The notes below the pieces were generated by a model that worked only from the letters and a program-made list of their open reading frames with translations, searched no databases and was not told where the DNA came from. 64,000 nucleotides of DNA from Rhizobium sp. NZLR1 (GTDB taxonomy: Bacteria > Pseudomonadota > Alphaproteobacteria > Rhizobiales > Rhizobiaceae), in contig NZ_CP071632.1 in assembly GCF_017357385.1 (NCBI RefSeq), positions 3,863,501-3,927,500 of the forward strand, read 5' to 3'. Positions 6,262-37,917 of the stretch are shown one piece after another; position 1 is the stretch's first letter, and each line of letters opens with the position of its first letter. The position numbers and the translations under genes were made by a program.

Positions 6262-7035
6262 TCAGCGCTGCAGGACGGCGATCGCCTGCTCATAGACCGC
6301 CCGGCTGCCGGCGGCGATGATCGAGCCGCCGTTTTCCGGCCGTCCGCCGTCCCAGGTGGTGATGATGCCGCCCGCCCCCTCGATGACGGGAATGATGCCG
6401 CCGACGTCATAGGGCTTCAGGCTGTTTTCGATGACGAGATCGATATGGCCGGCGGCAAGCAGCGCATAGGCATAGCAGTCGCAGCCGTAGCGGAAGAGCC
6501 GGACCTGACCCTCGATCTCGCGGTATTTCTCCATCTCCTCGCCGTTAAAGAGATGCGGTGAGGTGGTGAACAGGATGGCGTTCGAAAGCGTGTCGCACTG
6601 GCGGGTCGCCAGCCGCCGCTCCCCCTCCGGCCCGGTATAGAGCGAGCCGTTCTGGTCGGCGAAATAACGTTCGCCGGTAAACGGCTGTTCGATCATGCCC
6701 ATGATCGCCCGCCCCTCTTTCTGCAGGCCGATAAGGGTTCCCCATACCGGCACGCCCGAGATGAAGGCACGCGTGCCGTCGATCGGATCGATCACCCAGA
6801 CATATTCGCGGTCGAGCCCGACATTGCCGTGTTCCTCGCCGAGAATGCCGTGGCCGGGGAAATTCTCCTCGATCAGCGCCCGGATGGCGAGTTCGGCCGC
6901 CCGGTCGCCCTCCGTCACCGGATCGAAACCGGAGGAAAGCTTGTTCGTGACATCGAGACCGGAGCGGAAGCGCGGCAGCGTCTCGGCTCGGGCGGCTTCC
7001 GCCAGGCGGTTGAAGAACGAACGGTCAGGAAGCAT
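6262..7035 (-). CDS. hisN: Inositol-monophosphatase-family histidinol-phosphate phosphatase
   Basis: 257 residues of the lithium-sensitive phosphatase superfamily. Metal-site motifs are complete: DPVTEGDRAAE (early), ILGEEHG, WVIDPIDGTRAFISG, and near the C terminus YDVGGIIPVIEGAGG. The GTRAFISGVP variant is typical of the HisN-type histidinol phosphatases that complete histidine synthesis in rhizobia and actinobacteria, which lack the HisB phosphatase. Inositol monophosphatase (SuhB) activity is the alternative. An MmgR/suhB-family sRNA gene lies about 190 bases upstream on the other strand. The start ATG at 7035 gives the full family N terminus. Confidence 0.85.
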   Translation of the reverse strand: MLPDRSFFNRLAEAARAETLPRFRSGLDVTNKLSSGFDPVTEGDRAAELAIRALIEENFPGHGILGEEHGNVGLDREYVWVIDPIDGTRAFISGVPVWGTLIGLQKEGRAIMGMIEQPFTGERYFADQNGSLYTGPEGERRLATRQCDTLSNAILFTTSPHLFNGEEMEKYREIEGQVRLFRYGCDCYAYALLAAGHIDLVIENSLKPYDVGGIIPVIEGAGGIITTWDGGRPENGGSIIAAGSRAVYEQAIAVLQR

Positions 7036-7188
7036 GAGGGATCCGTTTGGCTGGCGGGAGTGACGCTTTCATAACGAAAAGCAGCGGGAATGCAAACACA
7101 GCAGGCAGTTCGATAGGGTTGCGACGAACCCTCCAATCGCTTCCATTACGCGCCCACTGCCCAAAGATGTCGCAGCGCAATATATTGC

Positions 7189-7217
7189 TTGACATTTGTG
7201 CAATGCAATAGTAGCGT
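7189..7217 (+). promoter_or_regulatory. Promoter of the MmgR-like sRNA
   Basis: TTGACA (7189-7194) is a perfect -35 box; the -10 is weak, near 7211-7217. The heptamer TTGTGCA (7196-7202) lies between the boxes. From memory, a heptamer at this place is conserved in mmgR promoters and linked to nitrogen-source control; the presence of the heptamer is seen, its function is not. Confidence 0.65.
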
Positions 7218-7222
7218 CGTTT

Positions 7223-7302
7223 GTACAGTCTTCTGACTGTAAATACCCTCCTTGGGTGTTTCCTCCCTAGACTTAGCCGCGCTTACAAGCGCGGTTTTTT
7301 TT
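7223..7302 (+). ncRNA. mmgR: MmgR / alpha-r8 (suhB family) trans-acting sRNA
   Basis: About 78 bases. Hairpin 1 is ACAGUC-UUCU-GACUGU (7225-7240). Hairpin 2 brackets a CCUCC-bearing loop (about 7243-7260). An unpaired UUUCCUCCCUAG stretch follows, then the rho-independent terminator CCGCGC-UUACAA-GCGCGG with eight T (7277-7302). Length, three-hairpin order and the pyrimidine single-stranded core match the rhizobial MmgR sRNA (Rfam family named suhB after its neighbour), and here the neighbour is indeed an inositol-monophosphatase-family gene. The core is complementary to Shine-Dalgarno sequences. In Sinorhizobium this RNA limits polyhydroxybutyrate granules under nitrogen stress. Assignment rests on recalled family features, not a covariance search. 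Confidence 0.82.
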
Positions 7303-7347
7303 GGCCGGGAAGACCAAGTGGAAAGACGTCGGTATAATCGACAGAGG

Positions 7348-8229
7348 TTATTCGGCGGCCAGCGCCCGATCGCCGGCGAACTTCTCGACATAGTCCGCCA
7401 TCTGCTGCATGAAAGCCGTGACCGCCTCAGCGACCACGGCGAAATCGCCGCGTTTCTCCAGCGTCACCTCGTCGACATAGATCGCCCGGTTCACTTCGAT
7501 CTGCAGCGCGTGCAGTCCGCGCGAAGGCCGGCCGTAATGTTCGGTGATGAAGCCGCCGGCATAAGGCTTGTTGCGGATCGCCGCAAAGCCCATTTCCTCG
7601 AGGATGGCGATGGCCGCGCGCGAAAGCTCGGCCGAAGCGCTGGTGCCATAACGATCGCCGATGATGAAGTCGGGCCGTGCGGTGCTGCCGGCGACGCGCA
7701 CATTGCCGGGCATCGAGTGGCAGTCGATCAGCACGCCGAAACCGAACTGCACATGCGTCCGCGCGATCAGCCGGCGCAGCGCCGCATGATAGGGCTTGTA
7801 GACCGCTTCGACCCGGTCGAGCCCCTCCTGCACCGGCAGGCGCCGCGCATAGATCTCCATGTTCTCGGCGACGATACGCGGGATGGTGCCGAGCCCGCCG
7901 GCGACGCGGAGCGAATTGACATTTGCATAGGGTGGCAACAGCCCGTCGAACATCCGCGGATCGAGTTCGTAGGGCTCGCGATTGACGTCGAGAAAGGCGC
8001 GCGGAAAGTTGGCCGCCAGCAGCGGTGCGCCGAGTGCGACGGCCGAGCCGAACAGCTCGTCGACATAGTGATCCTCGGAACGACGGATGGCGATACCCTC
8101 GAGCCTGGACTGCGCGATAAATTCCGGTGGATAAATACGGCCGCTATGGGGGGAGTTGTAGACGAAAGGGATGGTCTGCGACACGGGCTCATGAACCTCA
8201 AAAAGCTCGTATTCGCGTATTTCCGGCAC
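7348..8229 (-). CDS. hutG: N-formylglutamate amidohydrolase
   Basis: 293 residues. The family signature FVYNSPHSGRIYPPEF (residues 24-38 region) supplies the first zinc histidine. DLVNREPYELDPRMFDG-like sequence and the central VLIDCHSMPG motif are also present. The enzyme hydrolyses N-formyl-L-glutamate to formate and glutamate, the last step of one histidine degradation route, in the cytoplasm. No other hut gene is nearby. The related formiminoglutamase fold is distinct, so the amidohydrolase assignment is preferred. The gene is divergent from cpdR with about 190 bases between starts. Confidence 0.88.
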   Translation of the reverse strand: MPEIREYELFEVHEPVSQTIPFVYNSPHSGRIYPPEFIAQSRLEGIAIRRSEDHYVDELFGSAVALGAPLLAANFPRAFLDVNREPYELDPRMFDGLLPPYANVNSLRVAGGLGTIPRIVAENMEIYARRLPVQEGLDRVEAVYKPYHAALRRLIARTHVQFGFGVLIDCHSMPGNVRVAGSTARPDFIIGDRYGTSASAELSRAAIAILEEMGFAAIRNKPYAGGFITEHYGRPSRGLHALQIEVNRAIYVDEVTLEKRGDFAVVAEAVTAFMQQMADYVEKFAGDRALAAE

Positions 8230-8417
8230 TTTCGGCCCTCTTTACCATGTCATGAACTGACTGCTTTGCCCATGTTGCCAGTTGCCCGGCCTCAAGTCCA
8301 TACTATGTAGCAGGGATGGCGGTCGGGCACGGGCAATTCACCGGTTGTTTACCGGGTGAAGACTAGTGTAAACGCTTGGCAGCCCACCAAAAACTTATTG
8401 ATCAGCGGTCTGGATTG
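8230..8417. promoter_or_regulatory. Divergent promoter region hutG / cpdR with inverted repeat
   Basis: A TTCACC (8337-8342) / GGTGAA (8355-8360) inverted repeat, flanked by CCGG on the inner side, lies about 60 bases upstream of the cpdR ATG. It could be an operator or a leader hairpin. No clear CtrA-type box was recognised. Confidence 0.35.
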
Positions 8418-8780
8418 ATGACTCAGAAGATACTTCTCGCAGAAGACGACAACGACATGCGCCGCTTCCTGGTGAAAGCGCTCGAAAAGGCCGGTTACAA
8501 GGTCCTTTCCTATGACAATGGCGCCAGCGCCTACGACCGGCTGCGCGAGGAGCCGTTTTCGCTGCTGTTGACCGATATCGTCATGCCGGAAATGGACGGC
8601 ATCGAGTTGGCGCGCCGCGCCACCGAACTCGACCCCGACCTGAAGGTGATGTTCATCACCGGTTTTGCGGCGGTGGCGCTGAACCCTGATTCGAAGGCGC
8701 CGAAGGATGCCAAGGTCCTTTCCAAGCCTTTCCACCTGCGCGATCTCGTCGACGAGGTCAACAAGATGCTTGCCGCGTAA
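8418..8780 (+). CDS. cpdR: CpdR-family single-domain response regulator
   Basis: 120 residues, a receiver domain alone. The acidic pocket is AEDDND (Glu9, Asp10, Asp11 region), the phospho-acceptor is Asp53 in LLTDIVMPEMDG, and the conserved Thr/Lys are in FITGFAAVAL and LSKPFHL. Sequence and length match CpdR of alphaproteobacteria. CpdR in its unphosphorylated form delivers cell-cycle substrates to ClpXP, including CtrA regulators, and is switched off by the CckA-ChpT phosphorelay. In Sinorhizobium CpdR1 is needed for proper polar protease localisation and symbiosis. The ATG at 8418 gives the normal N terminus; upstream in-frame codons are not conserved-looking. It stands alone, 85 bases before tRNA-Val. 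Confidence 0.9.
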   Translation: MTQKILLAEDDNDMRRFLVKALEKAGYKVLSYDNGASAYDRLREEPFSLLLTDIVMPEMDGIELARRATELDPDLKVMFITGFAAVALNPDSKAPKDAKVLSKPFHLRDLVDEVNKMLAA

Positions 8781-8820
8781 GGCTTGCCGGGCGGCACGTC
8801 ACAAAACTGCAAAAAGCCTA

Positions 8821-8849
8821 TTGACGGCTCCAAAGGTTTTGTGATCTAT
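8821..8849 (+). promoter_or_regulatory. Promoter of tRNA-Val
   Basis: TTGACG (8821-8826), 17-base spacer, ATCTAT (8844-8849), giving a start point about ten bases before the mature tRNA. Confidence 0.6.
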
Positions 8850-8864
8850 CCGCCGCCATCGGAT

Positions 8865-8939
<75 letters not shown>

Positions 8940-9453
8940 TCCGATCCCCTTGCCCCACAAGGGATTTCGCCAAGCCGCTGTTTGGTGAATTTTCTCGGTC
9001 TCCATCCAATTTATTTTTGCCGATGCCGGACCTTCGTCGCTTCTCGAGGCGACATCGACATGGCCTGTCCCGGCAAACCATGTTGTCGGCCTTGGCTGGT
9101 CCGTGCAGATGGCAGTCATGACGCGCCGCATATGAGGGCGTGCTCACACGATCATCAATTGCACATCACTCGCTGGGATTCAGCCCCTCGTTGCTCGAGC
9201 ATCCGGAAGTCCGGTTTTGTGACGGAGAGATGACGGGTTTGTGACAAAACGCGTGTTATTTCAGCAACATAGCTGACCGAGCCTACTGTCATGATCGACA
9301 ATCTCGTTGCGGCGCAGCATCGCCTATGTAATTTCCGCGGCGAGGCAGGCGCCAAGCTAAAGGGTGCCGCTTCGGTCACACGGGATGAAGATACGTAGGG
9401 ACTGCCGATGGCAACGGTCTTCATCCTCTTGCATCTGAACTGGAGGTTATTCC
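8940..9453. other. Intergenic region tRNA-Val / ropA
   Basis: No gene accepted in 514 bases. The distal half is the ropA control region. TTTTGTGAC (9214-9222) and TTTGTGAC (9238-9245) are direct repeats about 23 bases apart, two helical turns, suggesting tandem response-regulator half-sites. Immediately upstream of the ropA ribosome site, GATGAAGA (9384-9391) and TCTTCATC (9418-9425) form an 8-bp stem with an inner TGCC/GGCA stem. The first 200 bases after the tRNA show nothing clear. Confidence 0.5.
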
Positions 9454-10497
9454 ATGAACATTAAGAGCCTTCTTCTCGGCTCCGCTGCTGCACTTGCAGC
9501 AGTATCCGGCGCTCAGGCTGCCGACGCTATCGTTGCTGCCGAACCGGAACCGGTTGAATATGTCCGCGTCTGCGACGCTTACGGCACCGGCTACTTCTAC
9601 ATCCCGGGCACCGAAACCTGCCTCAAGATCAACGGCTACATCCGTTTCCAGGTTGACGTTGCTCCGCACGCCAGCTCGATCGGCGCCGGCGGCGGCGGTT
9701 CCGTCGCCAACGACTCGGATTGGGACGCCCGTACGCGCGGCCAGGTTCAGTTCACCGCCAAGAGCGACACCGAATACGGTCCGCTGACCGGCGTCATCGT
9801 CATGCAGTTCAATGCTGACAACGCAACCGCTCAGAAGGCTCAGCTCGACTCCGCTTATATCGACATCGCCGGCTTCCGCGCCGGTCTGTTCTACAGCTGG
9901 TGGGATGACGGCCTCTCAGGCGAAACCGACGACATCGGTTCGCCGGTCACGCTGCATAACTCCATCCGTTATCAGTACGAAACCGACGCTTTCTACGCTG
10001 GCATCAGCGTCGACGAGCTGGAAGACAGCCCGTTCTATGATGGCGAAACCGCCAACAACGTCGGCGTTGCAGTCGGTCTCGGCGGCAAGGCTGGTGCATT
10101 CAGCTACCAGATCACTGCCGGTTACGACACCGACAACGAAGAAGGCGCCGTCCGCGCTATGGGTACGGTTGCTGTCGGTCCGGGCACGCTCGGCCTCGCA
10201 GTTGTCTACGCAACGAACCCGAACGCCTATTACAACAAGGCTGAATGGGCGATCGCGGCCGAATACGCCATCAAGGCGACTGACAAGCTGAAGATTACCC
10301 CGGCTGTTCAGTACTACGACAACTACGGTGTCACTGCTGGCGAGTTCAACGACGACGTCAGCGCCTGGAAGGCCGGCGTAACGATCGACTACCAGATCGT
10401 TGAAAACCTCTCGGCAAAGGTTTCGGTTCAGTACCTCGATCCGGACAATGCTGAAGACGTAACCTCGGGCTACTTCCGCCTGCAGCGCGCGTTCTAA
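9454..10497 (+). CDS. ropA: RopA-type outer membrane porin
   Basis: 347 residues. A signal peptide (MNIKSLLLGSAAALAAVSGAQA, cleavage near residue 22) is followed by the rhizobial porin start EPVEYVRVCDAYGTGYFYIP and ICLKINGY-type sequence (CLKINGYIRFQVDV). The protein alternates amphipathic strands and ends in a terminal aromatic (LQRAF), the outer-membrane sorting signal. It forms the trimeric general porin of the outer membrane. Codons are strongly biased to the preferred set and unlike most neighbours (many GCT, GTT, AAC, AAG), pointing to very high expression. A GGAGG sits 8 bases before the ATG, and a structured leader precedes it. Two stable hairpins follow the stop. Confidence 0.93.
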   Translation: MNIKSLLLGSAAALAAVSGAQAADAIVAAEPEPVEYVRVCDAYGTGYFYIPGTETCLKINGYIRFQVDVAPHASSIGAGGGGSVANDSDWDARTRGQVQFTAKSDTEYGPLTGVIVMQFNADNATAQKAQLDSAYIDIAGFRAGLFYSWWDDGLSGETDDIGSPVTLHNSIRYQYETDAFYAGISVDELEDSPFYDGETANNVGVAVGLGGKAGAFSYQITAGYDTDNEEGAVRAMGTVAVGPGTLGLAVVYATNPNAYYNKAEWAIAAEYAIKATDKLKITPAVQYYDNYGVTAGEFNDDVSAWKAGVTIDYQIVENLSAKVSVQYLDPDNAEDVTSGYFRLQRAF

Positions 10498-13198: not shown

Positions 13199-13423
13199 AT
13201 CCCGCAGCCTGCCAGACATCGGCTGACGGGGAGTTTTGGTGCCGGGCCCCTCTGGCGAGAGTTTTTACGGCGCTCTCGTGATGTCGGTACCGCCTGCAGC
13301 TTAGCCGGCGGATTTTTCATCGATGAACAAGCTCACCATGCCTGACCCGCATGCCCGTTGTGGCATGCCGCGTCTTTCCCTCTCCACCCTCGCCACCATG
13401 ATTTGCGGCCGCGAGGTGCGGCC
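13199..13423 (+). promoter_or_regulatory. Structured leader of terC: candidate terminator-type riboswitch
   Basis: The segment GCCAGACATC (13211-13220) can pair in two exclusive ways: GCCAGA with TCTGGC (13251-13256), or GACATC with GATGTC (13280-13285). The second fold leaves room for CGAGAG/CTCTCG (13256-13261 with 13273-13278) inside it. Just downstream CCGCC (13290-13294) and GGCGG (13307-13311) with an inner GC pair form a terminator hairpin followed by ATTTTTC. This order, a bistable domain, then a terminator, then a metal-transport-type gene, is what a riboswitch looks like. TerC-family genes are often preceded by the manganese yybP-ykoY aptamer; GGGGAG is present at 13229-13234 but the full consensus was not recognised. 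Confidence 0.5.
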
Positions 13424-24762: not shown

Positions 24763-24850
24763 GCGCGTCTTTCGGACGCGCTAAGGACGCCGTAGCATTT
24801 TGAATCGCGGCATAATTCCTTAAATCGATTCCGATTTAAGGAATTATGCC
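24763..24850. repeat. Palindromic interspersed repeat after tctE
   Basis: A perfect 19-base palindrome, GGCATAATTCCTTAAATCG (24809-24827), four-base loop, CGATTTAAGGAATTATGCC (24832-24850), is preceded by a second hairpin, GCGCGTC-TTTCG-GACGCGC (about 24764-24782). Both together look like a mobile-type intergenic element that I associate with Rhizobium chromosomes. It may also act as the tctDE terminator. Confidence 0.65.
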
Positions 24851-24946
24851 GGTGACCTTTCCAGCTTGCTTTCTTTCGCTGCATTGCACACACTGATTTC
24901 GGGAACAGCAAGCCGCACGACGATGCGCGCCGGATAAAAGAGAAAT

Positions 24947-27900
24947 ATGTCGATCAAAGCCAGCATCTATCATCTGACCCATTACACTTATGATAAACCG
25001 ATCCGCCTCGGCCCACAGATCATCCGACTGAAACCTGCCTCGCATTCGAAGACACGGGTGCTCAGCCACTCGCTGAAGGTCACGCCCTCCAACCATTTCG
25101 TCAACCTGCAGCAGGATCCCTACGGCAATTACCTCGCCCGCTACGTCTTTCCGGACCCGGTGACGGAGTTCAAGATCGAGGTCGATCTCGTCGCCGACAT
25201 GACGGTCTACAATCCCTTCGACTTCTTCGTCGAGGAAGAGGCAACCAAGTGGCCCTTCGGGTACCCTGAGACGATCCAGGAAGATCTCTCGATCTATATG
25301 ACGCCGGAACCGGCCGGTCCCCGCCTGAAGGCAATGCTGCCGACGCTCGACTGGTCGCCCGACCAGCCGACGGTCGATATGATCGTCGGCCTGAATGCCC
25401 GCCTGCAGCGGCAGATCGGCTATGTCATCCGCATGGAAACCGGCGTGCAGACGCCGGAGGAGACGCTTGAAAGCGCCAAGGGCTCCTGCCGCGACACCAG
25501 TTGGCTGCTCGTCCAGATCCTTCGCCATCTCGGCCTTGCCGCCCGCTTCGTCTCCGGCTACCTCATCCAGCTGACGCCGGACCTGAAAGCACTCGACGGC
25601 CCCTCCGGCACCAAAGTCGATTTCACCGACCTGCATGCCTGGGCGGAGGTCTATCTGCCCGGCGCCGGCTGGGTCGGCCTTGATCCGACGTCTGGGCTGC
25701 TGACCGGCGAAAGCCACATCCCGCTTGCCGCCACGCCGCATTATCGCAACGCCGCGCCGATCTCGGGCGGTTATTTCGGCGAGGCCGAAACCGAATTCGC
25801 CTTCGACATGAAGGTCTCGCGCGTCGCCGAACACCCGCGCATCACCAAGCCTTTCTCCGATGAAAGCTGGGACGAACTCAACGAACTCGGCGAGAAGGTC
25901 GATCGTGTCCTCGAAGCCGAGGACGTGCATCTGACGATGGGCGGCGAACCGACCTTCGTTTCGATCGACGATTTCCAGTCCGAGGAGTGGAACACCGCCG
26001 CCGTCGGCCCGACCAAGCGCGAAAAGGCCGACAGCCTGATCCGCCGGCTGCACGAACGCTTCGCCCCCGGCGGTTTCCTGCATTATGGCCAGGGCAAATG
26101 GTATCCGGGCGAAAGCCTGCCGCGCTGGACCTTCTCGCTCTACTGGCGCCGCGACGGCAAGCCGGTCTGGCAGAACCTCGATCTGGTGGCTGTCGAAGGC
26201 AAAGATACCGGCGTCACCGCCGAGGATGCCGAGAAGTTTTTGACGGCGATCGCAAAGGAACTGGCGATCAAGCCTGACATGGTGCAGCCGGCCTATGAGG
26301 ATCCAGCCGACTGGATCATCAAGGAAGGCAGCCTTCCCGAAAACGTCGATCCGTCGAATTCGAAGCTGAAGGATCCCGAAGAACGCAACCGCATCGCCCG
26401 GGTGTTTGCCCGTGGCCTTACCGTCCCCACGGGTTACATCCTCCCGGTTCAAGCATGGAACGCCAAGGCGGCTGAAAGCCGCGTCTGGGTCAGCGAGAAA
26501 TGGCGCACCCGCCGCGGCAATATCTTTCTCGTCCCGGGCGACAGTCCCATCGGTTACCGCCTGCCGCTCGGCACACTGCCCTATGTTCCCCCGGCGCGTT
26601 ATCCCTATATCCACCCCGCCGATCCGACGATCCCACGTGAACCGCTGCCTGATGTCTTTGTACCGGCCGGCCGCGCCATGCCTGAAGCCTCGTTCAATGC
26701 CGACGAGGGCAATCGCGGCCGGATCGAACAGACGCTCGGTGAACTCCGCGGGGCCGTGCGCACCGCCATGTCGGTCGAGCCGCGCGACGGCAGGCTCTGC
26801 GTCTTCATGCCGCCGGTCGAGCGCATCGAAGATTATCTCGAGCTGATCGCCGCTGCCGAAAACGCCGCCGCCGAGCTCAAGCTTCCGGTCCACATCGAAG
26901 GTTACCCGCCGCCGCAGGACGAGCGCATCAATGTCATCCGCGTCGCCCCGGATCCCGGCGTCATCGAGGTCAACATTCATCCGGCCTCGAACTGGAAGGA
27001 CTGCGTCGATATCACTACGGCGATCTACGAGGAGGCGCGTGACACCCGGCTTGGCGCCGACAAGTTCATGATCGACGGCCGTCATACCGGCACCGGCGGC
27101 GGCAACCATGTCGTCGTCGGCAGCGCCAATCCGAACAACAGCCCGTTCCTGCGCCGTCCCGATCTCTTAAAGAGCGTCGTCCTGCACTGGCAGCGGCACC
27201 CCTCGCTCTCCTACCTCTTCTCCGGCATGTTCATCGGCCCAACCAGCCAGGCGCCGCGCATCGATGAGGCTCGTCACGACAGCCTCTACGAGCTGGAGAT
27301 CGCCATGGCGCAGATCGCTGCACCCGGCCGCGGCCAGCAGCCGCTGCCCTGGCTCGTCGACCGCCTGTTCCGCCACCTTTTGACCGACGTTACCGGCAAC
27401 ACCCACCGCGCCGAGATCTGTATCGACAAGCTGTTTTCGCCGGACGGTCCGACCGGACGGCTCGGCCTCATCGAGTTCCGTGGCTTCGAAATGCCGCCGA
27501 ACGCCCGCATGTCGCTCGCCCAGCAATTGCTGGTCCGCGCGCTGATCGCCCGGTTCTGGGTCAACCCGGTCGATGGCAAATTCGTCCGCTGGGGCACAAC
27601 TCTGCACGACCGTTTCATGCTGCCGCATTTCGTCTGGGCCGATTTCCTCGACGTGCTTGCCGACCTTCGCGAAAACGGCTTCGACGTCAGTTCGGAATGG
27701 TTCAAGGCTCAGCTCGAATTCCGCTTCCCCTTCTGCGGCGAGGTCGAATACGAAGGCTCCAAACTGGAGCTGCGCCAGGCGCTTGAACCCTGGCACGTCA
27801 TGGGCGAGGAAGGTGCGCCGGGCGGCACTGCCCGTTACGTCGACAGCTCCGTCGAGCGCCTTCAAGTGCGGCTCGAGACCAGCAATGCGGCGCGCTACAC

Positions 27901-28273
27901 CGTCACCTGCAATGGCCGCACTCTGCCGCTGACGCCGACCGGCACCTCCGGCGTATCGGTCGCCGGCGTCCGTTACAAGGCGTGGCAGCCGTCCTCCGGC
28001 CTGCATCCCGTCTTGCCGATCAACACGCCTTTGACTTTTGACATTTATGATACATGGTCGAAGCGTTCGATCGGCGGCTGCATCTATCATGTTGCCCATC
28101 CGGGCGGCCGGACCTATGACACCTTCCCGGTCAACGGCAACGAGGCGGAAGCAAGGCGGCTCGCCCGCTTCGAGCCGTGGGGACATACGGCGGGTGGTTA
28201 TATCCCGCGCGCCGAGACGGGTTCTCTTGAATTCCCGCTAACGCTGGATCTGAGGCGGCCCGCCGGAATTTGA
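24947..28273 (+). CDS. Large transglutaminase-family protein with DUF2126 domain
   Basis: 1108 residues, the full family length. An N-terminal beta domain (about 5-100, [20 protein letters not shown]) is followed by a transglutaminase-like cysteine-protease core with Cys181 ([14 protein letters not shown]), His230 ([10 protein letters not shown]) and Asp246 (GLDPTSG). A very large DUF2126 region (about 280-1100) contains [35 protein letters not shown] and [14 protein letters not shown], which read like a glutamine-synthetase/ATP-grasp-type amidoligase core. It is first of a three-gene cassette and likely cytoplasmic. The pairing suggests formation and cleavage of an amide bond on a small molecule or peptide; the substrate is unknown. 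The start is the ATG at 24947. Confidence 0.85.
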
Positions 28274-28326
28274 AGCCGGGGGATTGAGGCTGAGGTTAAG
28301 GCCGGGGGTTTAAGGCTTGGGTTTTG

Positions 28327-30744
28327 ATGGGTAAGAGGCCGGCAGTTGAGCGCAGGGGAGAAGCAGAGGACCGCATCGGCAAGGATGCGGCCTTCGACTA
28401 TGAGCCGCTTCCTGGCACCGCCGACGAGATGGTCGACAATAAAGGTGTTGTCCGCCCGGTCTGGAAGAATTTCCTGTCGCATCTGAGCGCAATGCCGGAA
28501 AAGGATCTCGCCGAGCGTTTCGCCCGCGCCGACCGCTATCTCCGGGATGCCGGCGTCTTCTACCGTGCCTATGGCAGCAAGGGCACCGGCGAACGCGCCT
28601 GGCCGATCTCGCATATTCCGGTGCTGATCGACGAGCGCGAATGGCAGACGCTGTCGGCAGGCCTCGTCCAGCGCGCCGACCTGCTCGAGGCGATCGTTGC
28701 CGATATCTACGGCGACAACCGGCTGGTGCAGGAAGGGGTGCTGCCGCCGGCGCTGATGGCCGCTAATCCCGAATTCCAACGCCCGCTCGCCGGCATCCGG
28801 CCGGCCTCCGGCCATTATCTGCATTTCTGCGCCTTCGAGATCGGCCGCGGACCGGACGGCAACTGGTGGGTGCTGGCCGACCGGACGCAGGCGCCGTCGG
28901 GCGCCGGTTTCGCGCTGGAAAGCCGCGTCGCGACGACCCGGGCCTTTTCGGATATCTACGCCGAAACCCCGGTCCACCGCCTCGCCTCCTTCTTCGGCGC
29001 CTTCCGCGACGCGCTGCAGGGCATGAAACATTCGGGCGACGACCGCATCGCCGTGCTGACGCCAGGCCCCGCCAACGAGACCTATTACGAGCACGCCTAC
29101 ATCGCCCGCTATCTCGGCTTCATGCTGCTCGAGGGCGAGGACCTCACCGTCGTCAAGGGCCGCGTCATGGTGCGCACCGTCGCCGGCCTGAAGCCGATCG
29201 GCGTGCTCTGGCGCCGTCTCGATTCGGCCTTTGCCGACCCGCTGGAGCTGAACCAGAATTCGCATATCGGCACGCCCGGCCTCGTCGAAGCGCTGCGCGC
29301 CGAAAGCGTCACCATCGTCAATGCGCTCGGTACGGGGGTTCTCGAAACCCGGGCGCTTCTGGCCTTCATGCCGACCATCTGTCACCGTCTACTGGGGCAG
29401 GATCTGCAACTTCCATCGATCGCCACCTGGTGGTGCGGCCAGGAGGAAGAGCGCGAGCACGTCGCAAAGAATATCGAGAAGATGGTGATCGGCCCGGCCT
29501 ATTCCCGCGCCCCCTTCTTCGACGACAGCGGCGAATCCGTGCTCGGCTCGTCACTGCGTGCGGCCGCCAAGGATTCCATCACCGACTGGCTGAGTTCGGA
29601 CGGACCGAAACTTGTGGGACAGGAGGTCGTCACGCTCTCGACGACGCCCGCCTGGGTGGACGGCAAGCTCGTGCCGCGGCCGATGTCGCTGCGCGTCTTC
29701 GCCGCCCGCACCGCGAACGGCTGGCAGATCATGCCCGGCGGTTTTGCCCGCATCGGCTCTGGCGCCGATGTCGCGGCGATCGCTATGCAGTCAGGCGGGG
29801 CGGCCGCCGACGTCTGGATCGTCAGCGACAAGCCGGTCGAGCGCCACACTCTGCTGCCGGCCGAAGGCAGCTTCACCCGCAACATGCCGGGCAGCCTGCC
29901 AAGCCGGGCGGCCGACAATCTGTTTTGGCTCGGCCGCTACATCGAGCGCGCCGAAGGGGCGCTGCGCATCCTGCGCGCCTGGCATGCGCGTTATGCCGAG
30001 GCTGCCGATCCGAGCCAGCCGCTGCTCGCCGACGTCTCCGAGTATCTCACGGCTGTCGATATCGATACCGCCGAGGCCGTGCCCGAAACGCTTTTACGCC
30101 ACATCGACAGCGCCGTTTATTCCGCAAGCAACATCCGCGACCGCTTCTCGCCGGATGGCTGGCTCGCCCTCAACGATCTCGCCAAGACCGCCCGCCGTTT
30201 CCATGTCAGCGTCGCTGCAGGCGATGACGCTAGTCACGCGATGACCATCCTTCTGCGCAAGCTTGCGGGCTTCGCCGGGCTGGTGCACGAGAACATGTAC
30301 CGCTTCATGGGCTGGCGCTTCCTCTCGCTCGGCCGTTATATCGAGCGCGGCCTGCACATGACGCGGCTGCTCGGCCACATGTCCGGCCCGGAAGCACCCG
30401 ACGGCGCGCTCGACATGCTGCTCGAGATCGGCGACAGCGTCATGACCCACCGCCGCCGCTACAACGTCAACACGGCGAGGCTGACCGTCACCGACCTTTT
30501 GGCGCTCGACCCCCTCAACCCCCGCTCGGTCCTCTTCCAGGTGAACGAGATCCACCACGAGGTCGAGCAACTGCCGAACGCCCTGATCAACGGCCAGATG
30601 TCGCCCTTCTACCGCGAGGCGATGCGGCTCCATTCCGGCCTGGCAGTGATGACGCCGGAGGGCATGGGGGTCGAGGTCTATCAACGGCTCGAACGCGAAT
30701 TGGAGCAGCTTTCCGAGCTGCTCGCCCAGACCTATCTCGGGTGA
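28327..30744 (+). CDS. Circularly permuted ATP-grasp and alpha-E domain fusion
   Basis: 805 residues. The ATG at 28327 directly follows a TTG in frame. N-terminal two thirds (about 20-480) is the circularly permuted ATP-grasp pair (DUF404/DUF407): DAGVFYRAYGSKG, RPASGHYLHFCAFEIGRGPD, the LTPGPANETYYEHAYIARYLG nucleotide-site motif, and SHIGTPGLVEALRAESV. The C-terminal third (about 500-800) is the alpha-E helical domain (DUF403), with SRAADNLFWLGRYIERAEGA and GWRFLSLGRYIERGLHMTR; these are often separate genes, here fused. ATP-grasp enzymes ligate a carboxylate to an amine through an acyl phosphate. Overlap or close spacing with both transglutaminase genes shows one operon. The product is unknown. 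Confidence 0.85.
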   Translation: MGKRPAVERRGEAEDRIGKDAAFDYEPLPGTADEMVDNKGVVRPVWKNFLSHLSAMPEKDLAERFARADRYLRDAGVFYRAYGSKGTGERAWPISHIPVLIDEREWQTLSAGLVQRADLLEAIVADIYGDNRLVQEGVLPPALMAANPEFQRPLAGIRPASGHYLHFCAFEIGRGPDGNWWVLADRTQAPSGAGFALESRVATTRAFSDIYAETPVHRLASFFGAFRDALQGMKHSGDDRIAVLTPGPANETYYEHAYIARYLGFMLLEGEDLTVVKGRVMVRTVAGLKPIGVLWRRLDSAFADPLELNQNSHIGTPGLVEALRAESVTIVNALGTGVLETRALLAFMPTICHRLLGQDLQLPSIATWWCGQEEEREHVAKNIEKMVIGPAYSRAPFFDDSGESVLGSSLRAAAKDSITDWLSSDGPKLVGQEVVTLSTTPAWVDGKLVPRPMSLRVFAARTANGWQIMPGGFARIGSGADVAAIAMQSGGAAADVWIVSDKPVERHTLLPAEGSFTRNMPGSLPSRAADNLFWLGRYIERAEGALRILRAWHARYAEAADPSQPLLADVSEYLTAVDIDTAEAVPETLLRHIDSAVYSASNIRDRFSPDGWLALNDLAKTARRFHVSVAAGDDASHAMTILLRKLAGFAGLVHENMYRFMGWRFLSLGRYIERGLHMTRLLGHMSGPEAPDGALDMLLEIGDSVMTHRRRYNVNTARLTVTDLLALDPLNPRSVLFQVNEIHHEVEQLPNALINGQMSPFYREAMRLHSGLAVMTPEGMGVEVYQRLERELEQLSELLAQTYLG

Positions 30745-30749
30745 CATCA

Positions 30750-31628
30750 ATGCTCTACGATCTTTCGCTTCGGATGGGTTACAGCTACGACGTGCCGGCC
30801 TCCGGCGCCCGCCACATCATGCGCCTGATGCCGCTGTCACTGACCAACCGGCAACGGCTGGTCGCCGGCTCGATCACCATCTCGCCGACGCCAGAGGAGC
30901 AGTCGCATTTCGTCGATTTCTTCGATCATCCCGCCACCTCCTTCATGCTGCGCGCGCCGCACGAGACGCTCGACATTCGCATGCAGGCCCGCGTGCAGGT
31001 GGAAAGCCAGCCGATCGCCGCCGATTTCTCGCCATTGCTCGCCGACTTGCCGGAGGAGATATCAGGCATCTGGTCGCTGGCGCCGGATTCGCCGCACCAC
31101 TTCCTCGGCGACAGCCCGCGCCTGACCCAAGCGCGCGAGATCAGCGACTATGCCCGAAGCTGCGCCATGCCTGATCTGACGGCGATGCAGATCGCCCATG
31201 CGCTCTGTGCCCGCATCAACAAGAATTTCACCTACGACCCCGAGGCGACGACGGTGGACACGACGCCGCTCGAAGCATTCACGCTGAAGCGCGGCGTCTG
31301 CCAGGATTTCACACACATCATGATCCTGGCGCTCCGGAGCCTCGGCATTCCGGCCGGCTACGTCTCCGGTTTCCTGCGCACCATCCCCCCACCGGGCAAG
31401 GAACGGCTGGAAGGTGCAGATGCCATGCATGCCTGGGTGCGGGTCTGGTGCGGCGAGACGATCGGCTGGATCGAGCTCGACCCGACCAACAACATCGCCG
31501 CCGGCACCGACCACATCGTCGTCGCCTACGGCCGGGACTATTCCGACGTCGTCCCCGTCATCGGCGTGTTGAAAAGCTATGGCGGCCAACGCGCCGACCA
31601 GGCGGTCGACGTGATCCCGCTGAAATAA
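30750..31628 (+). CDS. Transglutaminase-like cysteine protease, cassette partner
   Basis: 292 residues. The N-terminal beta domain (MLYDLSLRMGYSYDVPASGA) is typical of bacterial transglutaminase-like proteins. The triad is complete: Cys184 in LKRGVCQDFTHI, His227 in ADAMHAWVRVW, Asp244 in IELDPTNN. A GTG at 30741 overlaps the upstream stop and would add three residues; the ATG at 30750 is used. No signal peptide. Likely action is hydrolysis or transfer at an amide bond made by the neighbouring ATP-grasp enzyme. Clusters of this type sometimes include the proteasome-like Anbu peptidase, which is absent here. Confidence 0.88.
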   Translation: MLYDLSLRMGYSYDVPASGARHIMRLMPLSLTNRQRLVAGSITISPTPEEQSHFVDFFDHPATSFMLRAPHETLDIRMQARVQVESQPIAADFSPLLADLPEEISGIWSLAPDSPHHFLGDSPRLTQAREISDYARSCAMPDLTAMQIAHALCARINKNFTYDPEATTVDTTPLEAFTLKRGVCQDFTHIMILALRSLGIPAGYVSGFLRTIPPPGKERLEGADAMHAWVRVWCGETIGWIELDPTNNIAAGTDHIVVAYGRDYSDVVPVIGVLKSYGGQRADQAVDVIPLK

Positions 31629-31738
31629 TCCCAAAACTGGAAGAATCCGCCGATTCGTTAAAATTGTATTGACGTCGTAAGGACAACGGAAAGGAGGAGC
31701 GTGCCTAATGTCACCCACAGGGTCTATTTCGGGTGAAC

Positions 31739-32977
31739 ATGATGAGCACCTCTTTTTTGCATCCCCGCCTGCGTCGCATGTTCAGCGACCGTGGCGGTAA
31801 TTTCGGTATGATGACGGCGATCCTGCTGCCCGTTCTTTTCGGTGCAGCCGGCATGGCGATCCAGGTGGGCGATATATTGCTCTCCAAACAGCAATTGCAG
31901 GAAGCCGCCGATTCCGCCGCGCTCGCAACCGCGACCGCGCTGGCGAACGGCACGATCCAGACTTCGCAGGCCGAGGCCTTCGCGCGGAATTTCGTCGCCG
32001 GACAAATGGCGAATTACCTGCAGAGCAGCGCCGATATCAAGAGCGCGACAGGCGTCGATATCAAGACAACGACGTCGGGCAAATCGACATCCTATCAGGT
32101 GACGGTTTCACCAAGTTACGACCTCACCGTCAACCCGCTGATGCAGGCGGTCGGTTTCAGCACGCAGCATCTTTCGACATCAAGCACGACCGTCGGCGGC
32201 CATTCGGAAACCCAGGGCTCGCTCTCGATGTATCTCGCGCTCGATAAATCAGGGTCGATGGGAGATCCTACCGAAACCGTCAACGTGGATGATCCGACGG
32301 AACCATTCACCTACGACTGCAACCTCCACTACAACAGCAAGAATAATAAGTGGGTTTACGACAAATGCACCGGCAGCCGCGCAAATTACTACACCAAGAT
32401 AGAGGCGCTGAAGATCGCCGCCGGCAGTCTCTTTAGCCAGCTCAACAGCGCTGATCCCAATGCCGAATATGTGCGCACCGGCGCCGTATCCTACGATATC
32501 AATCAATACGCGCCGAGCAAGCTCGCTTGGGGGATCACCGCTGTCACGAGTTATGTCAACGCGCTTCAATCGGGAGGCGGCACGAATTCAAGCGGCGCAG
32601 TGAACACGGCTTACACATCTCTGACCGCCAAGAACGCCGCGGGCAATGACGCCGAGGACGCAGCTCACAAGCTCAAGACCGGGCAAGTACCCAAGAAGTA
32701 CATCGTTTTCATGACCGATGGCGACAACAACGACGACAGCAGCTACGGCCGTTCATACGACACCTTGACCAAGGCAACATGCGACACCGCGAAATCCAAG
32801 GGCATCGAAATTTACACGATCGCCTTCATGGCGCCCGCGGGCGGACAGGCGCTGCTGCATTATTGCGCTTCCGATGACGCCCATTATTTCCAGGCGGAAA
32901 AAATGGAAGATCTGCTTGCCGCCTTCAAGGCGATCGGAGCGAAGGCCTCTGCACAGATGACACGTCTGACGAACTGA
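31739..32977 (+). CDS. TadG-like pilus-assembly protein with von Willebrand A domain
   Basis: 412 residues. Near the N terminus a TadE/TadG-type sequence, RGGNFGMMTAILLPVLFGAAGMAIQ (membrane helix at about 24-44), is followed by the DILLSKQQLQEAADSAALA helix. A vWA domain (about 165-405) has the MIDAS motif DKSGSMGD and the TDGDNND segment of the metal site. The main body should be periplasmic or cell-surface. TadG proteins belong to Flp/Tad pilus systems, yet no other tad gene is in the window. It contains a Ser/Thr/Lys-rich region typical of this family and has lower GC and more lysine and asparagine than its neighbours. The start is one of three close codons (GTG 31733, ATG 31739, ATG 31742). 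Confidence 0.82.
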   Translation: MMSTSFLHPRLRRMFSDRGGNFGMMTAILLPVLFGAAGMAIQVGDILLSKQQLQEAADSAALATATALANGTIQTSQAEAFARNFVAGQMANYLQSSADIKSATGVDIKTTTSGKSTSYQVTVSPSYDLTVNPLMQAVGFSTQHLSTSSTTVGGHSETQGSLSMYLALDKSGSMGDPTETVNVDDPTEPFTYDCNLHYNSKNNKWVYDKCTGSRANYYTKIEALKIAAGSLFSQLNSADPNAEYVRTGAVSYDINQYAPSKLAWGITAVTSYVNALQSGGGTNSSGAVNTAYTSLTAKNAAGNDAEDAAHKLKTGQVPKKYIVFMTDGDNNDDSSYGRSYDTLTKATCDTAKSKGIEIYTIAFMAPAGGQALLHYCASDDAHYFQAEKMEDLLAAFKAIGAKASAQMTRLTN

Positions 32978-33250: not shown

Positions 33251-35713
33251 ATGAACACCGTTTCCAAGCCGGTTATCCCCTCCCCCGCCCCGCGCAGCTC
33301 AAAGCCGGAAATTCTCGCCGAAGAAATCATCGAACGCCTGACCTACCGCATCGGCAAGGATGCCAAGGTGGCAAAGCCGCATGACTGGCTGACGGCAACA
33401 ATCCTGGTGGTGCGCGACCGCATCATCGACAGATGGATGGCCTCCACCCGCGAAGTTTACGCGACCGGCGCCAAGCGCGTTTATTATCTTTCCCTCGAAT
33501 TCCTGATCGGCCGCCTGATGCGCGATGCCGTCTCGAACCTCGGGCTGATGGAGGAGGTGCGCGATGCACTCGCCTCGCTCGGCGTCGACGTCAACGTCAT
33601 TGCCGGCCTGGAGCCGGATGCCGCCCTCGGCAACGGCGGCCTCGGCCGTCTGGCGGCCTGTTTCATGGAAAGCATGGCGACGGTCGACGTCCCCGCCTAT
33701 GGCTACGGCATCCGCTATGTCCACGGCCTTTTCCGCCAGCAGTTGGCCGACGGCTGGCAGGTGGAGCTGCCGGAAAACTGGCTCGCCCACGGTAATCCCT
33801 GGGAGTTCGAGCGCCGCGAGAGCGCCTATGAAATCGGCTTCGGCGGCGCCGTCGAATTCATCACAACCCATGACGACCAGCCGCGTTACGTCTGGAAACC
33901 GGCCGAGCGCGTCATCGCCGCCGCCTTCGACACGCCGGCCGTCGGCTGGCGCGGCAAGCGCGTCAACACCTTGCGCCTCTGGTCGGCGCAGCCGATCGAT
34001 CCGATCCTGCTCGATGCCTTCAATGCCGGCGACCACATCGGGGCGCTGCGCGAAAGCAACAAGGCCGAAAGCCTGACCCGGGTCCTCTATCCTGCCGACG
34101 CCACCCCGGCCGGCCAGGAACTGCGCCTGCGCCAGGAATTCTTCTTCTCCTCAGCCTCGCTGCAGGACATCCTGCGCCGTCATCTGCAGCAATATGACGA
34201 TTTCACTTCGCTGCCGGACAAGGTAGCGATCCAGCTGAACGACACCCATCCCGCCGTCTCGGTCGCCGAACTCGTGCGTCTGCTCTGTGATGTACACGGG
34301 ATGGATTTCGACCAGGCCTGGGATATCACCCGCCGGACCTTCTCCTACACCAACCACACGCTTCTGCCGGAAGCGCTGGAAAGCTGGGCGGTGCCGCTGT
34401 TCGAGCGTCTGCTGCCGCGCCACATGCAGATCATCTATGCGATCAACGCCAAGATTCTGATCGACGCGCGCAAAGGCAAAAACTTCTCCGACGGGGAAAT
34501 CCGCTCGATCTCGCTGATCGATGAAAGTGGCGACCGCCGCGTGCGCATGGGTAACCTTGCTTTCGTCGGCTCGCATTCGATCAACGGCGTCTCTGCCCTG
34601 CACACCGACCTGATGAAGGTCACGGTCTTTGCCGACCTGCATAAACTCTATCCCAATCGCATCAACAACAAGACCAACGGCATCACGCCGCGCCGCTGGC
34701 TGCAGCAGTGCAATCCCGGTCTCACCGGCCTGATCCGCGAGGCGATCGGCGACGAATTCCTCGACGACGCCGAGAAGCTGCGCCCGCTCGAGGCGCATGC
34801 TTCGGATCCGAGCTTCCAGGAGAAGTTCGCAGCGGTAAAGCGGGCGAACAAGGTGGCGCTCTCCAACCTGGTCGCCAGCCGCATGGGCGTGAAGCTCGAT
34901 CCGTCGGCGATATTCGACATCCAGATCAAGCGCATCCATGAATACAAGCGTCAGCTGCTGAACATCATCGAAGCCGTCGCGCTCTACGACCAGATCCGCT
35001 CGCATCCCGAGCTCGACTGGGTGCCGCGCGTGAAACTCTTCGCCGGCAAGGCGGCGCCGAGTTACTACAACGCCAAGCTGATCATCAAACTGATCAACGA
35101 CGTCTCCCGCACGATCAACAATGATCCGTCGGTGCGCGGCCTGCTGAAGATCGTCTTCGTGCCGAATTACAATGTCTCGCTCGCCGAAGTCATGGTTCCG
35201 GCCGCCGACCTCTCCGAACAGATATCGACCGCCGGCATGGAAGCGTCCGGTACCGGCAACATGAAGTTCGGCTTGAACGGTGCGCTGACCATCGGCACGC
35301 TCGATGGCGCCAACGTCGAGATGCGCGACAATGTCGGCGAGGACAACATCGTCATCTTCGGCCTCAAGGCCGACGAGGTCTCAAAGGTCCGCAGCGATGG
35401 TCACAATCCCCGCGCCATCATCGAGGGCTCGCGCGAACTCGCCCAGGCGCTCGCTGCCATCAGCTCCGGCGTCTTCTCGCCCGATGACCGCAACCGTTAC
35501 ACGGCGCTGATCGACGGCATCTATTCGCACGACTGGTTCATGGTCGCTGCCGATTTCGACGCCTACGCCCAGGCGCAGCGCGAAGTCGATCAGATTTGGA
35601 CCGACCAGTCCGCCTGGTACACCAAGACAATCAACAACACGGCGCGGATGGGCTGGTTCTCTTCCGACCGTACGATCAGGCAATATGCAGACGAAATCTG
35701 GAGAGCCGGATGA
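33251..35713 (+). CDS. glgP: Glycogen phosphorylase
   Basis: 820 residues, full length for the family. The PLP lysine lies in EASGTGNMKFGLNGALTIGTLDG-type sequence near residue 670, and the N-terminal part has GNGGLGRLAACFMESMATV, NDTHPAVSVAELVR and the conserved FQIKRIHEYKRQ-like sequence. It degrades glycogen by phosphorolysis to glucose 1-phosphate in the cytoplasm. First gene of the glg operon, and its stop overlaps the glgB start (ATGA). In most rhizobia the operon order is glgP-B-C-A-pgm as here. The start ATG at 33251 gives a 20-residue basic/polar N-terminal extension before EEIIERL. Confidence 0.95.
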   Translation: MNTVSKPVIPSPAPRSSKPEILAEEIIERLTYRIGKDAKVAKPHDWLTATILVVRDRIIDRWMASTREVYATGAKRVYYLSLEFLIGRLMRDAVSNLGLMEEVRDALASLGVDVNVIAGLEPDAALGNGGLGRLAACFMESMATVDVPAYGYGIRYVHGLFRQQLADGWQVELPENWLAHGNPWEFERRESAYEIGFGGAVEFITTHDDQPRYVWKPAERVIAAAFDTPAVGWRGKRVNTLRLWSAQPIDPILLDAFNAGDHIGALRESNKAESLTRVLYPADATPAGQELRLRQEFFFSSASLQDILRRHLQQYDDFTSLPDKVAIQLNDTHPAVSVAELVRLLCDVHGMDFDQAWDITRRTFSYTNHTLLPEALESWAVPLFERLLPRHMQIIYAINAKILIDARKGKNFSDGEIRSISLIDESGDRRVRMGNLAFVGSHSINGVSALHTDLMKVTVFADLHKLYPNRINNKTNGITPRRWLQQCNPGLTGLIREAIGDEFLDDAEKLRPLEAHASDPSFQEKFAAVKRANKVALSNLVASRMGVKLDPSAIFDIQIKRIHEYKRQLLNIIEAVALYDQIRSHPELDWVPRVKLFAGKAAPSYYNAKLIIKLINDVSRTINNDPSVRGLLKIVFVPNYNVSLAEVMVPAADLSEQISTAGMEASGTGNMKFGLNGALTIGTLDGANVEMRDNVGEDNIVIFGLKADEVSKVRSDGHNPRAIIEGSRELAQALAAISSGVFSPDDRNRYTALIDGIYSHDWFMVAADFDAYAQAQREVDQIWTDQSAWYTKTINNTARMGWFSSDRTIRQYADEIWRAG

Positions 35714-37917
35714 AAACGCCGAAAACCGTCCCTGAGGTAAAGCTTTCCTGGGAAATTTCGGCAGATGAAATCGCGGCGATCCTTGCCGGCTCGCATTCCA
35801 ATCCCTTTGCCGTCCTAGGTGCACACCAGGCAGGCGATGCCTTCGTCGCCCGGTGCTTCATCCCGGGTGCCGAGGAAGTCACCGCGATGACGCTCGACGG
35901 CGGCGTCATCGGCGAACTGAAACAGCTCCATGCCGACGGCGTCTTCGCCGGCCCGGTTTCCCTCACCAAGCTCCAGCCGGTGCGTTACCGCGCCCGGCGC
36001 GGCGATGCCGAATGGGCTGTCACCGATCCCTACAGCTTCGGTCCGGTGCTCGGGCCGATGGACGATTATTTTGCCCGCCAAGGCTCACACCTGCGCCTGT
36101 TCGACAAGATGGGCGCCCACCTCATCAAGCATGATGGCGCCCAGGGCATCCATTTCGCCGTCTGGGCTCCGAATGCGCAGCGCGTTTCTGTCGTCGGTGA
36201 TTTCAATAATTGGGATGGCCGCCGCCACGTCATGCGCTTCCGCTCCGATAGCGGCATCTGGGAAATCTTTGCCCCAGACGTACCGATCGGCGTTGCCTAC
36301 AAGTTCGAAATCCGCGGCCAGGACGGCGTGCTGCTGCCGCTGAAGGCCGATCCCTTCGCCCGCCGCAGCGAACTCCGACCGAAGACCGCCTCTATCACCG
36401 CTGCCGATCTGGAACAGGAGTGGGATGACGAAGCTCATCTGAAGCACTGGCGCGAGACCGACAAGCGCCGCCAGCCGATCTCGATCTACGAGGTGCATGC
36501 CGCCTCATGGCGGCGCCGGGACGATGGCACGATGCTTTCCTGGGACGAGCTCGCCTCCAGCCTCATCCCTTATTGCGACGACATGGGCTTCACCCATATC
36601 GAATTCCTGCCGATCACCGAGCACCCCTACGACCCCTCCTGGGGTTACCAGACGACAGGTCTCTACGCACCGACCGCTCGTTTCGGCGAGCCGGAAGGTT
36701 TCGCCCGTTTCGTCAACGGCTGCCACAAGGTCGGCATCGGCGTCATCCTCGACTGGGTGCCAGCGCATTTCCCGACCGACGAGCACGGCCTCGGCTGGTT
36801 CGACGGCACGGCACTCTACGAGCACGAAGACCCGCGCAAGGGCTTCCACCCGGACTGGAGCACGGCGATCTACAATTTCGGCCGTACCGAGGTCGTTTCC
36901 TATCTCGTCAACAACGCGCTTTACTGGGCCGAGAAATTCCATCTCGACGGTCTGCGCGTCGATGCCGTCGCCTCGATGCTCTATCTCGATTATTCGCGCA
37001 AACACGGCGAATGGATCCCGAACGAATATGGCGGCAACGAAAACCTCGAAGCGGTCCGCTTTCTGCAGGACCTCAACATCCGCATCTACGGCAATCATTC
37101 CAACGTCATGACCATTGCCGAGGAATCGACCTCCTGGCCGAAGGTCTCGCAGCCGGTCCATGAAGGCGGCCTCGGCTTCGGCTTCAAGTGGAATATGGGC
37201 TTCATGCACGACACGCTGAGCTACATGAGCCGCGATCCCATATACCGCGGACACCATCACAACGAGCTTACCTTCGGCCTGCTTTACGCCTATTCCGAAA
37301 ATTTCGTCCTGCCGCTCTCGCATGACGAGGTTGTCCATGGCAAAGGCTCGCTGATCGCAAAGATGCCGGGCGATGACTGGCAGAAATTCGCCAATCTGCG
37401 CGCCTACTACGCGTATATGTGGGGCTATCCCGGCAAGAAGCTGTTGTTCATGGGCCAGGAATTCGCCCAGTGGAGCGAGTGGAGCGAGGAGAAGTCGCTC
37501 GATTGGAACCTGCTGCAGTATCGCATGCATGAGGGCATGCGGCGCCTGGTGCGCGATCTCAATTTCACCTACCGCAGCAAGCCGGCGTTGCATGAACGCG
37601 ATTGCGAGGGCGAAGGTTTTGAATGGCTCGTCGCCGACGACCACCAGAATTCGGTCTTTGCCTGGCTGCGCAAGTCGCCGGGCCAAAAGCCGGTCGCCGT
37701 CATCACCAATTTTACCCCCGTCTACCGCGAGAACTACACGATCCGCCTGCCCTCCGCAGGCCGCTGGCGGGAAATCCTGAATACCGATGCCGACATCTAC
37801 GGCGGCAGCGGCAAGGGCAATGGCGGGCGCGTGCAGGCCGTCGATGCCGGCGGCGACATCACCTGCTCGATCACCTTGCCGCCCTTGGCGACAATCATGC
37901 TTGAACCTGAAAATTAG
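35710..37917 (+). CDS. glgB: 1,4-alpha-glucan branching enzyme
   Basis: 735 residues. An N-terminal carbohydrate-binding / early-set domain ([22 protein letters not shown]) precedes a second one ([22 protein letters not shown]). The GH13 barrel has the catalytic Asp in [17 protein letters not shown], the acid Glu in [10 protein letters not shown] and the third acid in [14 protein letters not shown]. It transfers chain segments to make alpha-1,6 branches of glycogen. The ATG at 35710 overlaps the glgP stop; upstream reading is within glgP. The next gene, glgC, follows after 19 bases. Confidence 0.95.

Follow-up and report, generated by a model that had tools for sequence, protein, structure and literature searches.

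In a 64,000-nucleotide stretch of the Rhizobium sp. NZLR1 genome (contig NZ_CP071632.1, positions 3,863,501 to 3,927,500; hereafter the window, in whose numbering coordinates are given), we find a three-gene transglutaminase / ATP-grasp cassette that combines an invariant candidate ligase site, in the DUF2126 domain of its first gene, with an ATP-grasp domain, in its second gene, that lacks the usual ATP and metal residues. We tentatively propose that DUF2126 is an ATP-dependent ligase, that gene 2 is a pseudo-ligase presenting substrate together with its alpha-E domain, that the transglutaminase folds transfer or cut, and that the pathway is shared with a sister cassette (B) elsewhere in the genome and with the zinc peptidase Peptidase_Mx. 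This kind of system, widespread in bacteria, is already known, having been predicted since 2008-2009 to make or modify small molecules with amide links; the cassette described here is well conserved and typical of it. Of an earlier sequence-only reading of this DNA, the operon, the catalytic triads, the absence of Anbu and the tie to predicted amidoligase systems are upheld; its views on an intact ATP-grasp, on the identity of the ligase and on an unusual gene fusion are revised below.

Domain make-up of the cassette

The three genes lie on the forward strand as one operon, and both their previously reported starts (24947, 28327 and 30750) and their gaps (53 bases between genes 1 and 2, 5 bases between genes 2 and 3) are reproduced. 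Gene 1 (24947..28273; 1108 amino acids, from its open frame and Pfam) joins a transglutaminase fold (residues 1-296) to the putative glutamine-synthetase (GS)-fold amidoligase DUF2126. Gene 2 (28327..30744, an 805-amino-acid open frame) fuses a circularly permuted ATP-grasp (residues about 29-500) to an Alpha-E domain (29896..30741, + strand) with both ER motifs, E540-R541 and E673-R674. Gene 3 (30750..31628) encodes a transglutaminase-fold protein with Cys184/His227/Asp244. The Pfam domains are Bact_transglu_N and Transglut_core in genes 1 and 3 and CP_ATPgrasp_2 and Alpha-E in gene 2, and NCBIfam gave no family at E 0.01 for any of the three proteins. Both gene 2 and gene 3 start with ATG; a TTG lies 3 bases upstream of the former, and the alternative GTG of the latter, at 30741, would run into gene 2. 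A scan for promoters and terminators returned nothing exceeding shuffled sequences. Upstream of gene 1 we observed a perfect 20-bp palindrome (24808-24851; 44 bases, loop 4) whose core occurs once in the window and which looks like a mobile palindromic repeat; no palindrome of more than 7 pairs was found at this site in the 20 comparable loci of 36 others.

The ligase of the cassette is most likely DUF2126, a domain that the sequence-only reading had overlooked. Pfam matches it, as a "putative amidoligase", to residues 279-1103 of gene 1 with 1332 bits, and the predicted model of the protein places it in the glutamine-synthetase fold. Gene 1 has the two parts that define the DUF2126 fusion family, an N-terminal transglutaminase fold with Cys-His-Asp and a C-terminal ligase domain of the GS superfamily. 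We examined conservation in gene-1 loci that are the best 80 of 593 pattern matches, among which close relatives are over-represented. The candidate catalytic residues of the GS-type site are invariant in 80/80 proteins (the window plus 79 of the 80 loci; L105, which is truncated, was dropped), and so is the triad Cys181/His230/Asp246. The gene-3 triad is present in 49 of 49 proteins, namely the window and the 48 loci that passed script filters (32 of the 80 were left out). Both triads are thus complete, as had been claimed. DUF2126 shares 8-14% identity with glutamine synthetase, GmaS and YbdK, from which gene 1 further differs in being much longer and fused to a transglutaminase.

A protein search with residues 279-1108 yields no architecture information: 8000 of 8000 scored candidates are related, and the best 120 share the same three Pfam domains. 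Among the matches listed, the closest relative is 97% identical and recorded as coming from Rhizobium leguminosarum. Several gene-1 relatives are labelled "IMP dehydrogenase" in public records, a name that is unsupported by any Pfam domain found and is probably an annotation error.

The literature offers a close parallel. Passages of a 2008 Biol Direct article describe fusions of a transglutaminase with a carboxylate-amine ligase, such as Mycobacterium tuberculosis Rv2566, that are predicted to form peptides (PMC2588565). This family has the same two-domain make-up as gene 1; the passages mention no degenerate ATP-grasp partner, unlike the window cassette (PMC2588565). From domain make-up, rather than from the Rv2566 sequence, we infer that the Rv2566 family is DUF2126. 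In the literature searched we found no paper on DUF2126 and no described reaction for the system, in agreement with the earlier view that its reaction is undescribed.

Gene 2 and its ATP-grasp domain

In its predicted model, the ATP-grasp part of gene 2 adopts the glutathione-synthetase fold (that of GSS/GspS ligases). In ATP-grasp enzymes the metal motif E-x-N binds Mg and a Lys binds ATP. The window protein carries A184-D185-R186 (28876..28884, + strand) where stand-alone ATP-grasp relatives carry E-D-N, has a Gly in place of the ATP Lys, and departs from the combination of metal E-x-N, ATP Lys and glycine-rich loop expected of a catalytic ATP-grasp ligase. Across fused proteins of this kind (A-type), the metal Glu, the metal Asn and the first Lys are jointly lost in 70 of 71, with G, A or S the usual substitutes for Glu, R for Asn and G, A or E for the first Lys, whereas all three are kept in 38/38 stand-alone (B-type) proteins. 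Three positions of the glycine loop that are Gly in all 38 B-type proteins hold Gly in 9, 6 and 22 of the 71. The metal Asn is also gone in 9 of 9 further A-type proteins. Filters left 2 of 72 fused loci out of the A-type set; from 40 rows labelled B, two (L196 and L143) were removed as A-type, one of which is still labelled B in the tree. The "intact chemistry" claimed by the sequence-only reading therefore does not extend to the ATP-grasp part of gene 2, which differs from eukaryotic-type glutathione synthetase and glutathionylspermidine synthetase in having lost the metal E-x-N and the ATP Lys and most of the glycine loop. When the PDB was searched with the B-type profile at E up to 10, the sole match was 3n6x. 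A profile alignment to GSP_synth proteins, which took in 16 of 20 sequences, was dropped as a residue map because it was not significant.

Gene 2 might nonetheless be active despite its altered residues, with a peptide made in two steps, by DUF2126 and then by the ATP-grasp, in the manner of gamma-glutamylcysteine ligase and glutathione synthetase. The loss of Glu, Asn and first Lys together in nearly every A-type protein and the erosion of the glycine loop make this unlikely.

Distribution, the sister cassette and Peptidase_Mx

DUF2126 is no chance find: it is present in 37/37 genomes of the genus and 42/61 of the kinship sample (the window genome is included in both), in 23/144 of the class and in 92/299 of the phylum. 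Among 14 control genomes it occurs in Synechococcus elongatus only, and CP_ATPgrasp in Synechococcus elongatus and Caulobacter vibrioides only. Loss of co-occurrence of the three genes across relatives had been named as one observation that would speak against the system, and it is not seen in most loci: a gene-2 counterpart lies beside gene 1, downstream, in 72 of the 76 loci with enough sequence (L080, L097, L105 and L127, whose contigs end too early, are omitted), with four exceptions. In the 72 loci where ATP-grasp and alpha-E are sufficiently complete, they form a single fused frame in 72/72. Fusion is therefore normal for this type, and the statement that the two are "normally separate" genes holds for the sister-type cassette and not for that of the window. 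In four further loci (L207, L208, L209 and L210) we observed an A-type gene 2 with a gene-3 transglutaminase, and DUF2126 was found neither in the fetched stretch nor in the genome.

The B set of the same genome lies at about 3.378 Mb on G000:C1, 0.5 Mb from the window cassette. It comprises a stand-alone ATP-grasp (6356-7765 of locus L003), an alpha-E gene (7765-8706) and a transglutaminase (8719-9543), and the motifs of its ATP-grasp are intact. An A-type frame (at least 790 amino acids) occurs in 22/144 class genomes; a B-type frame is found in 22/22 of those, compared to 59/144 with any. Similarly, CP_ATPgrasp of either kind accompanies DUF2126 in 23/23 class and 92/92 phylum genomes, against a phylum background of 171/299 genomes; counted by genus, it is found in 53/53 with DUF2126 versus 103/180 (three marginal genomes, G225, G328 and G481, were dropped from CP_ATPgrasp counts). 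Because in these samples A-type is always found with B-type, and DUF2126 always with CP_ATPgrasp, the A cassette seems to depend on the sister B cassette. In at least 25 of the 92 genomes with DUF2126, no more than 10 kb separates that domain from a stand-alone ATP-grasp, a lower bound based on pairs chosen by eye from tables. In L131, a Nitrospirales metagenome-assembled genome, we observed a complete A cassette in head-to-head orientation to a B-type pair of ATP-grasp and alpha-E.

Related clusters include Anbu, which the sequence-only reading had reported missing from the window and which our searches, within their reach, did not find anywhere else in the genome. An Anbu-like protein from L188 gave no match in the whole genome, the window or L003; we take this query to be Anbu from its operon place, its proteasome-family score of 22.1 bits (cut-off 22.4) and general knowledge. 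A search of the genome with the proteasome-family Pfam model returned one 185-amino-acid frame only; since the score that this model gives to the Anbu-like query falls slightly short of the cut-off, the query is the better test. Published passages describe an Anbu operon of ATP-grasp, alpha-E, transglutaminase and Anbu (PMC6376114, PMC5666114), whose first three parts also occur in the window cassette and, as the same three genes, in the B cassette. Compared with the operon in these passages, Anbu was not found in the window cassette, ATP-grasp and alpha-E are fused, the ATP-grasp is degenerate and DUF2126 is added. According to the same sources, Anbu shows no peptidase or amidase activity, the operon proteins form no stable complex, the Yersinia Anbu-operon ATP-grasp releases phosphate from ATP (PMC6376114), and substrates of the Anbu system are still to be found (PMC5666114). 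Passages on a further transglutaminase (PMC12239564, PMC12096838) concern an inactive seven-helix membrane protein of a different system.

When all neighbours in the 80 loci were compared with one another and the 45 largest groups inspected, Peptidase_Mx (PF15887), a zinc-ribbon protein, stood out, lying about 1.5 kb or less from gene 1 in 9 loci, including Boseongicola, Aurantimonas, Methylobacterium, Loktanella and Hyphomicrobium records. The remaining recurrent groups looked generic, antisense or limited to close relatives. Full-length Peptidase_Mx occurs in 57 phylum-sample genomes; CP_ATPgrasp is present in 56 of these and DUF2126 in 44 (genomes with a partial match, G365, G375 and G421, were counted as without; in the class sample the weak partial matches G124, G138, G160 and G199 were dropped). 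In the window's order, it is found in 22/30 DUF2126 genomes versus 0/11 others. At least 16 of the 57 genomes have it no more than 6 kb from a DUF2126 or CP_ATPgrasp match, again a lower bound from pairs selected by eye, and in L189 the genes for ATP-grasp, alpha-E and transglutaminase precede it on the same strand. The window genome has one Peptidase_Mx (L187:7498-8634, - strand) with HETGH and the zinc ribbon. In the L189 operon it takes the place of Anbu; the two are not mutually exclusive, and we rejected replacement as a general rule: Peptidase_Mx is present in 7/45 Anbu genomes versus 3/14 CP_ATPgrasp genomes without Anbu, and both share one cluster in L218 and L219. The proteases in passages of PMC2701414, of COG2856 and beside HTH proteins, are unrelated to Peptidase_Mx. 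The literature searched contained, as far as we could find, nothing on the degenerate ATP-grasp, on A being nested within B or on a link to Peptidase_Mx; Iyer et al. 2009, possibly relevant, lies outside that coverage.

Proposed pathway and the rest of the window

In the pathway we propose, the window cassette would be the accessory "A" cassette of transglutaminase / circularly permuted ATP-grasp / alpha-E systems. DUF2126 of gene 1 would use ATP to activate a carboxylate and then join an amine. Gene 2, its usual ATP-Mg binding apparently gone and much of the remaining pocket apparently retained, would act through ATP-grasp and alpha-E as the substrate-binding or docking part, and the two transglutaminase-fold domains would cut or transfer the amide. 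The substrate would be made by, or shared with, the B cassette with its intact glutathione-synthetase-like ATP-grasp, and Peptidase_Mx would be a member of the same pathway. The pairing of a GS fold with a glutathione-synthetase fold recalls gamma-glutamylcysteine ligase and glutathione synthetase, and on this analogy a gamma-glutamyl or glutathione-like product would be a fair guess, no more. For Anbu / transglutaminase / ATP-grasp systems, these proposals name a likely live ligase (DUF2126), a likely pseudo-ligase (gene 2), a probable partner (the sister cassette) and a candidate hydrolase (Peptidase_Mx), and so point experiments to the proteins worth combining and the active sites worth mutating. 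We regard as more doubtful the wider idea that many bacteria have a second glutathione-like amide pathway, in which an obligate accessory module of GS-type ligase-transglutaminase and pseudo glutathione-synthetase, its ATP binding traded for substrate presentation, works on what a separate, intact glutathione-synthetase-like cassette produces, with Peptidase_Mx as a hitherto unrecognised zinc peptidase of the pathway.

A number of observations weigh against the proposed pathway. For gene 1, the model is of moderate confidence (predicted local distance difference test, pLDDT, 71.5), and matches to GS by plain Foldseek reach E 0.03 at best. For gene 2, the alignment to GSP_synth proteins has a matching register but lacks significance (probability 0.3%); divergence is everywhere, with 60 of 115 other B-conserved columns likewise below 80% retention in A-type, and the 7 columns selected as site positions show a modest excess of losses (p 0.016). 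The metal Glu is replaced in 5 of 71 A-type proteins by Asp, which might still bind metal, and is retained in one (L107). Among the nine further A-type proteins, L223 retains Glu, four retain the second Lys and three have the first Lys gapped rather than replaced; this retention of single site residues in some proteins slightly lowers our confidence in the proposed pathway. The parts can also separate. Gene 2 is missing beside gene 1 in L079, L087, L103 and L123, where sequence is sufficient, and DUF2126 can therefore occur without it (the genomes of L087, L097, L103 and L123 have one CP_ATPgrasp each, in a frame of 479-542 amino acids, and that of L079 has frames of 484 and 845); four class genomes have an A-type gene 2 without DUF2126 (G070, G096, G106 and G119), and five the reverse (G080, G136, G166, G184 and G194). 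Genome size and ancestry can partly drive the co-occurrence, the counts of which are uncorrected for the tree and cover Pseudomonadota only. The Peptidase_Mx of the window genome is unlinked, far from cassettes A and B; of the 92 genomes with DUF2126, 48 have no Peptidase_Mx or a partial one only, and G283 carries it without CP_ATPgrasp.

The cassette could instead be a degrading system, in which the transglutaminase folds, as cysteine amidases or peptidases, attack gamma-glutamyl or isopeptide bonds, and the part played by DUF2126 or gene 2 is confined to recognition or re-ligation. We find this improbable, as an invariant GS-type site would be unexpected in a purely degrading system. Protein modification as in pupylation, in which DUF2126 would attach a residue or small molecule to a protein for the transglutaminases to edit, is quite improbable: passages of PMC2588565 assign the Pup ligase PafA to the same carboxylate-amine/ammonia ligase superfamily, but they report that no small frame resembling Pup lies close to the family, and none was searched for here.

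Downstream of the cassette lie a frame with a TadG/von Willebrand-like look (31733-32977; named from reading the sequence), which separates it from glgP, and glgP- and glgB-like genes starting at 33251 and 35596 (span 33251-37917; named from their reading frames). A glycogen link was rejected, as the glgP- and glgB-like genes each occur in 13/80 loci only and are treated as lineage-bound order. Elsewhere in the window, Rfam identifies, above gathering score, the mmgR/suhB small RNA (7238-7309) and terC RNA (13234-13296).
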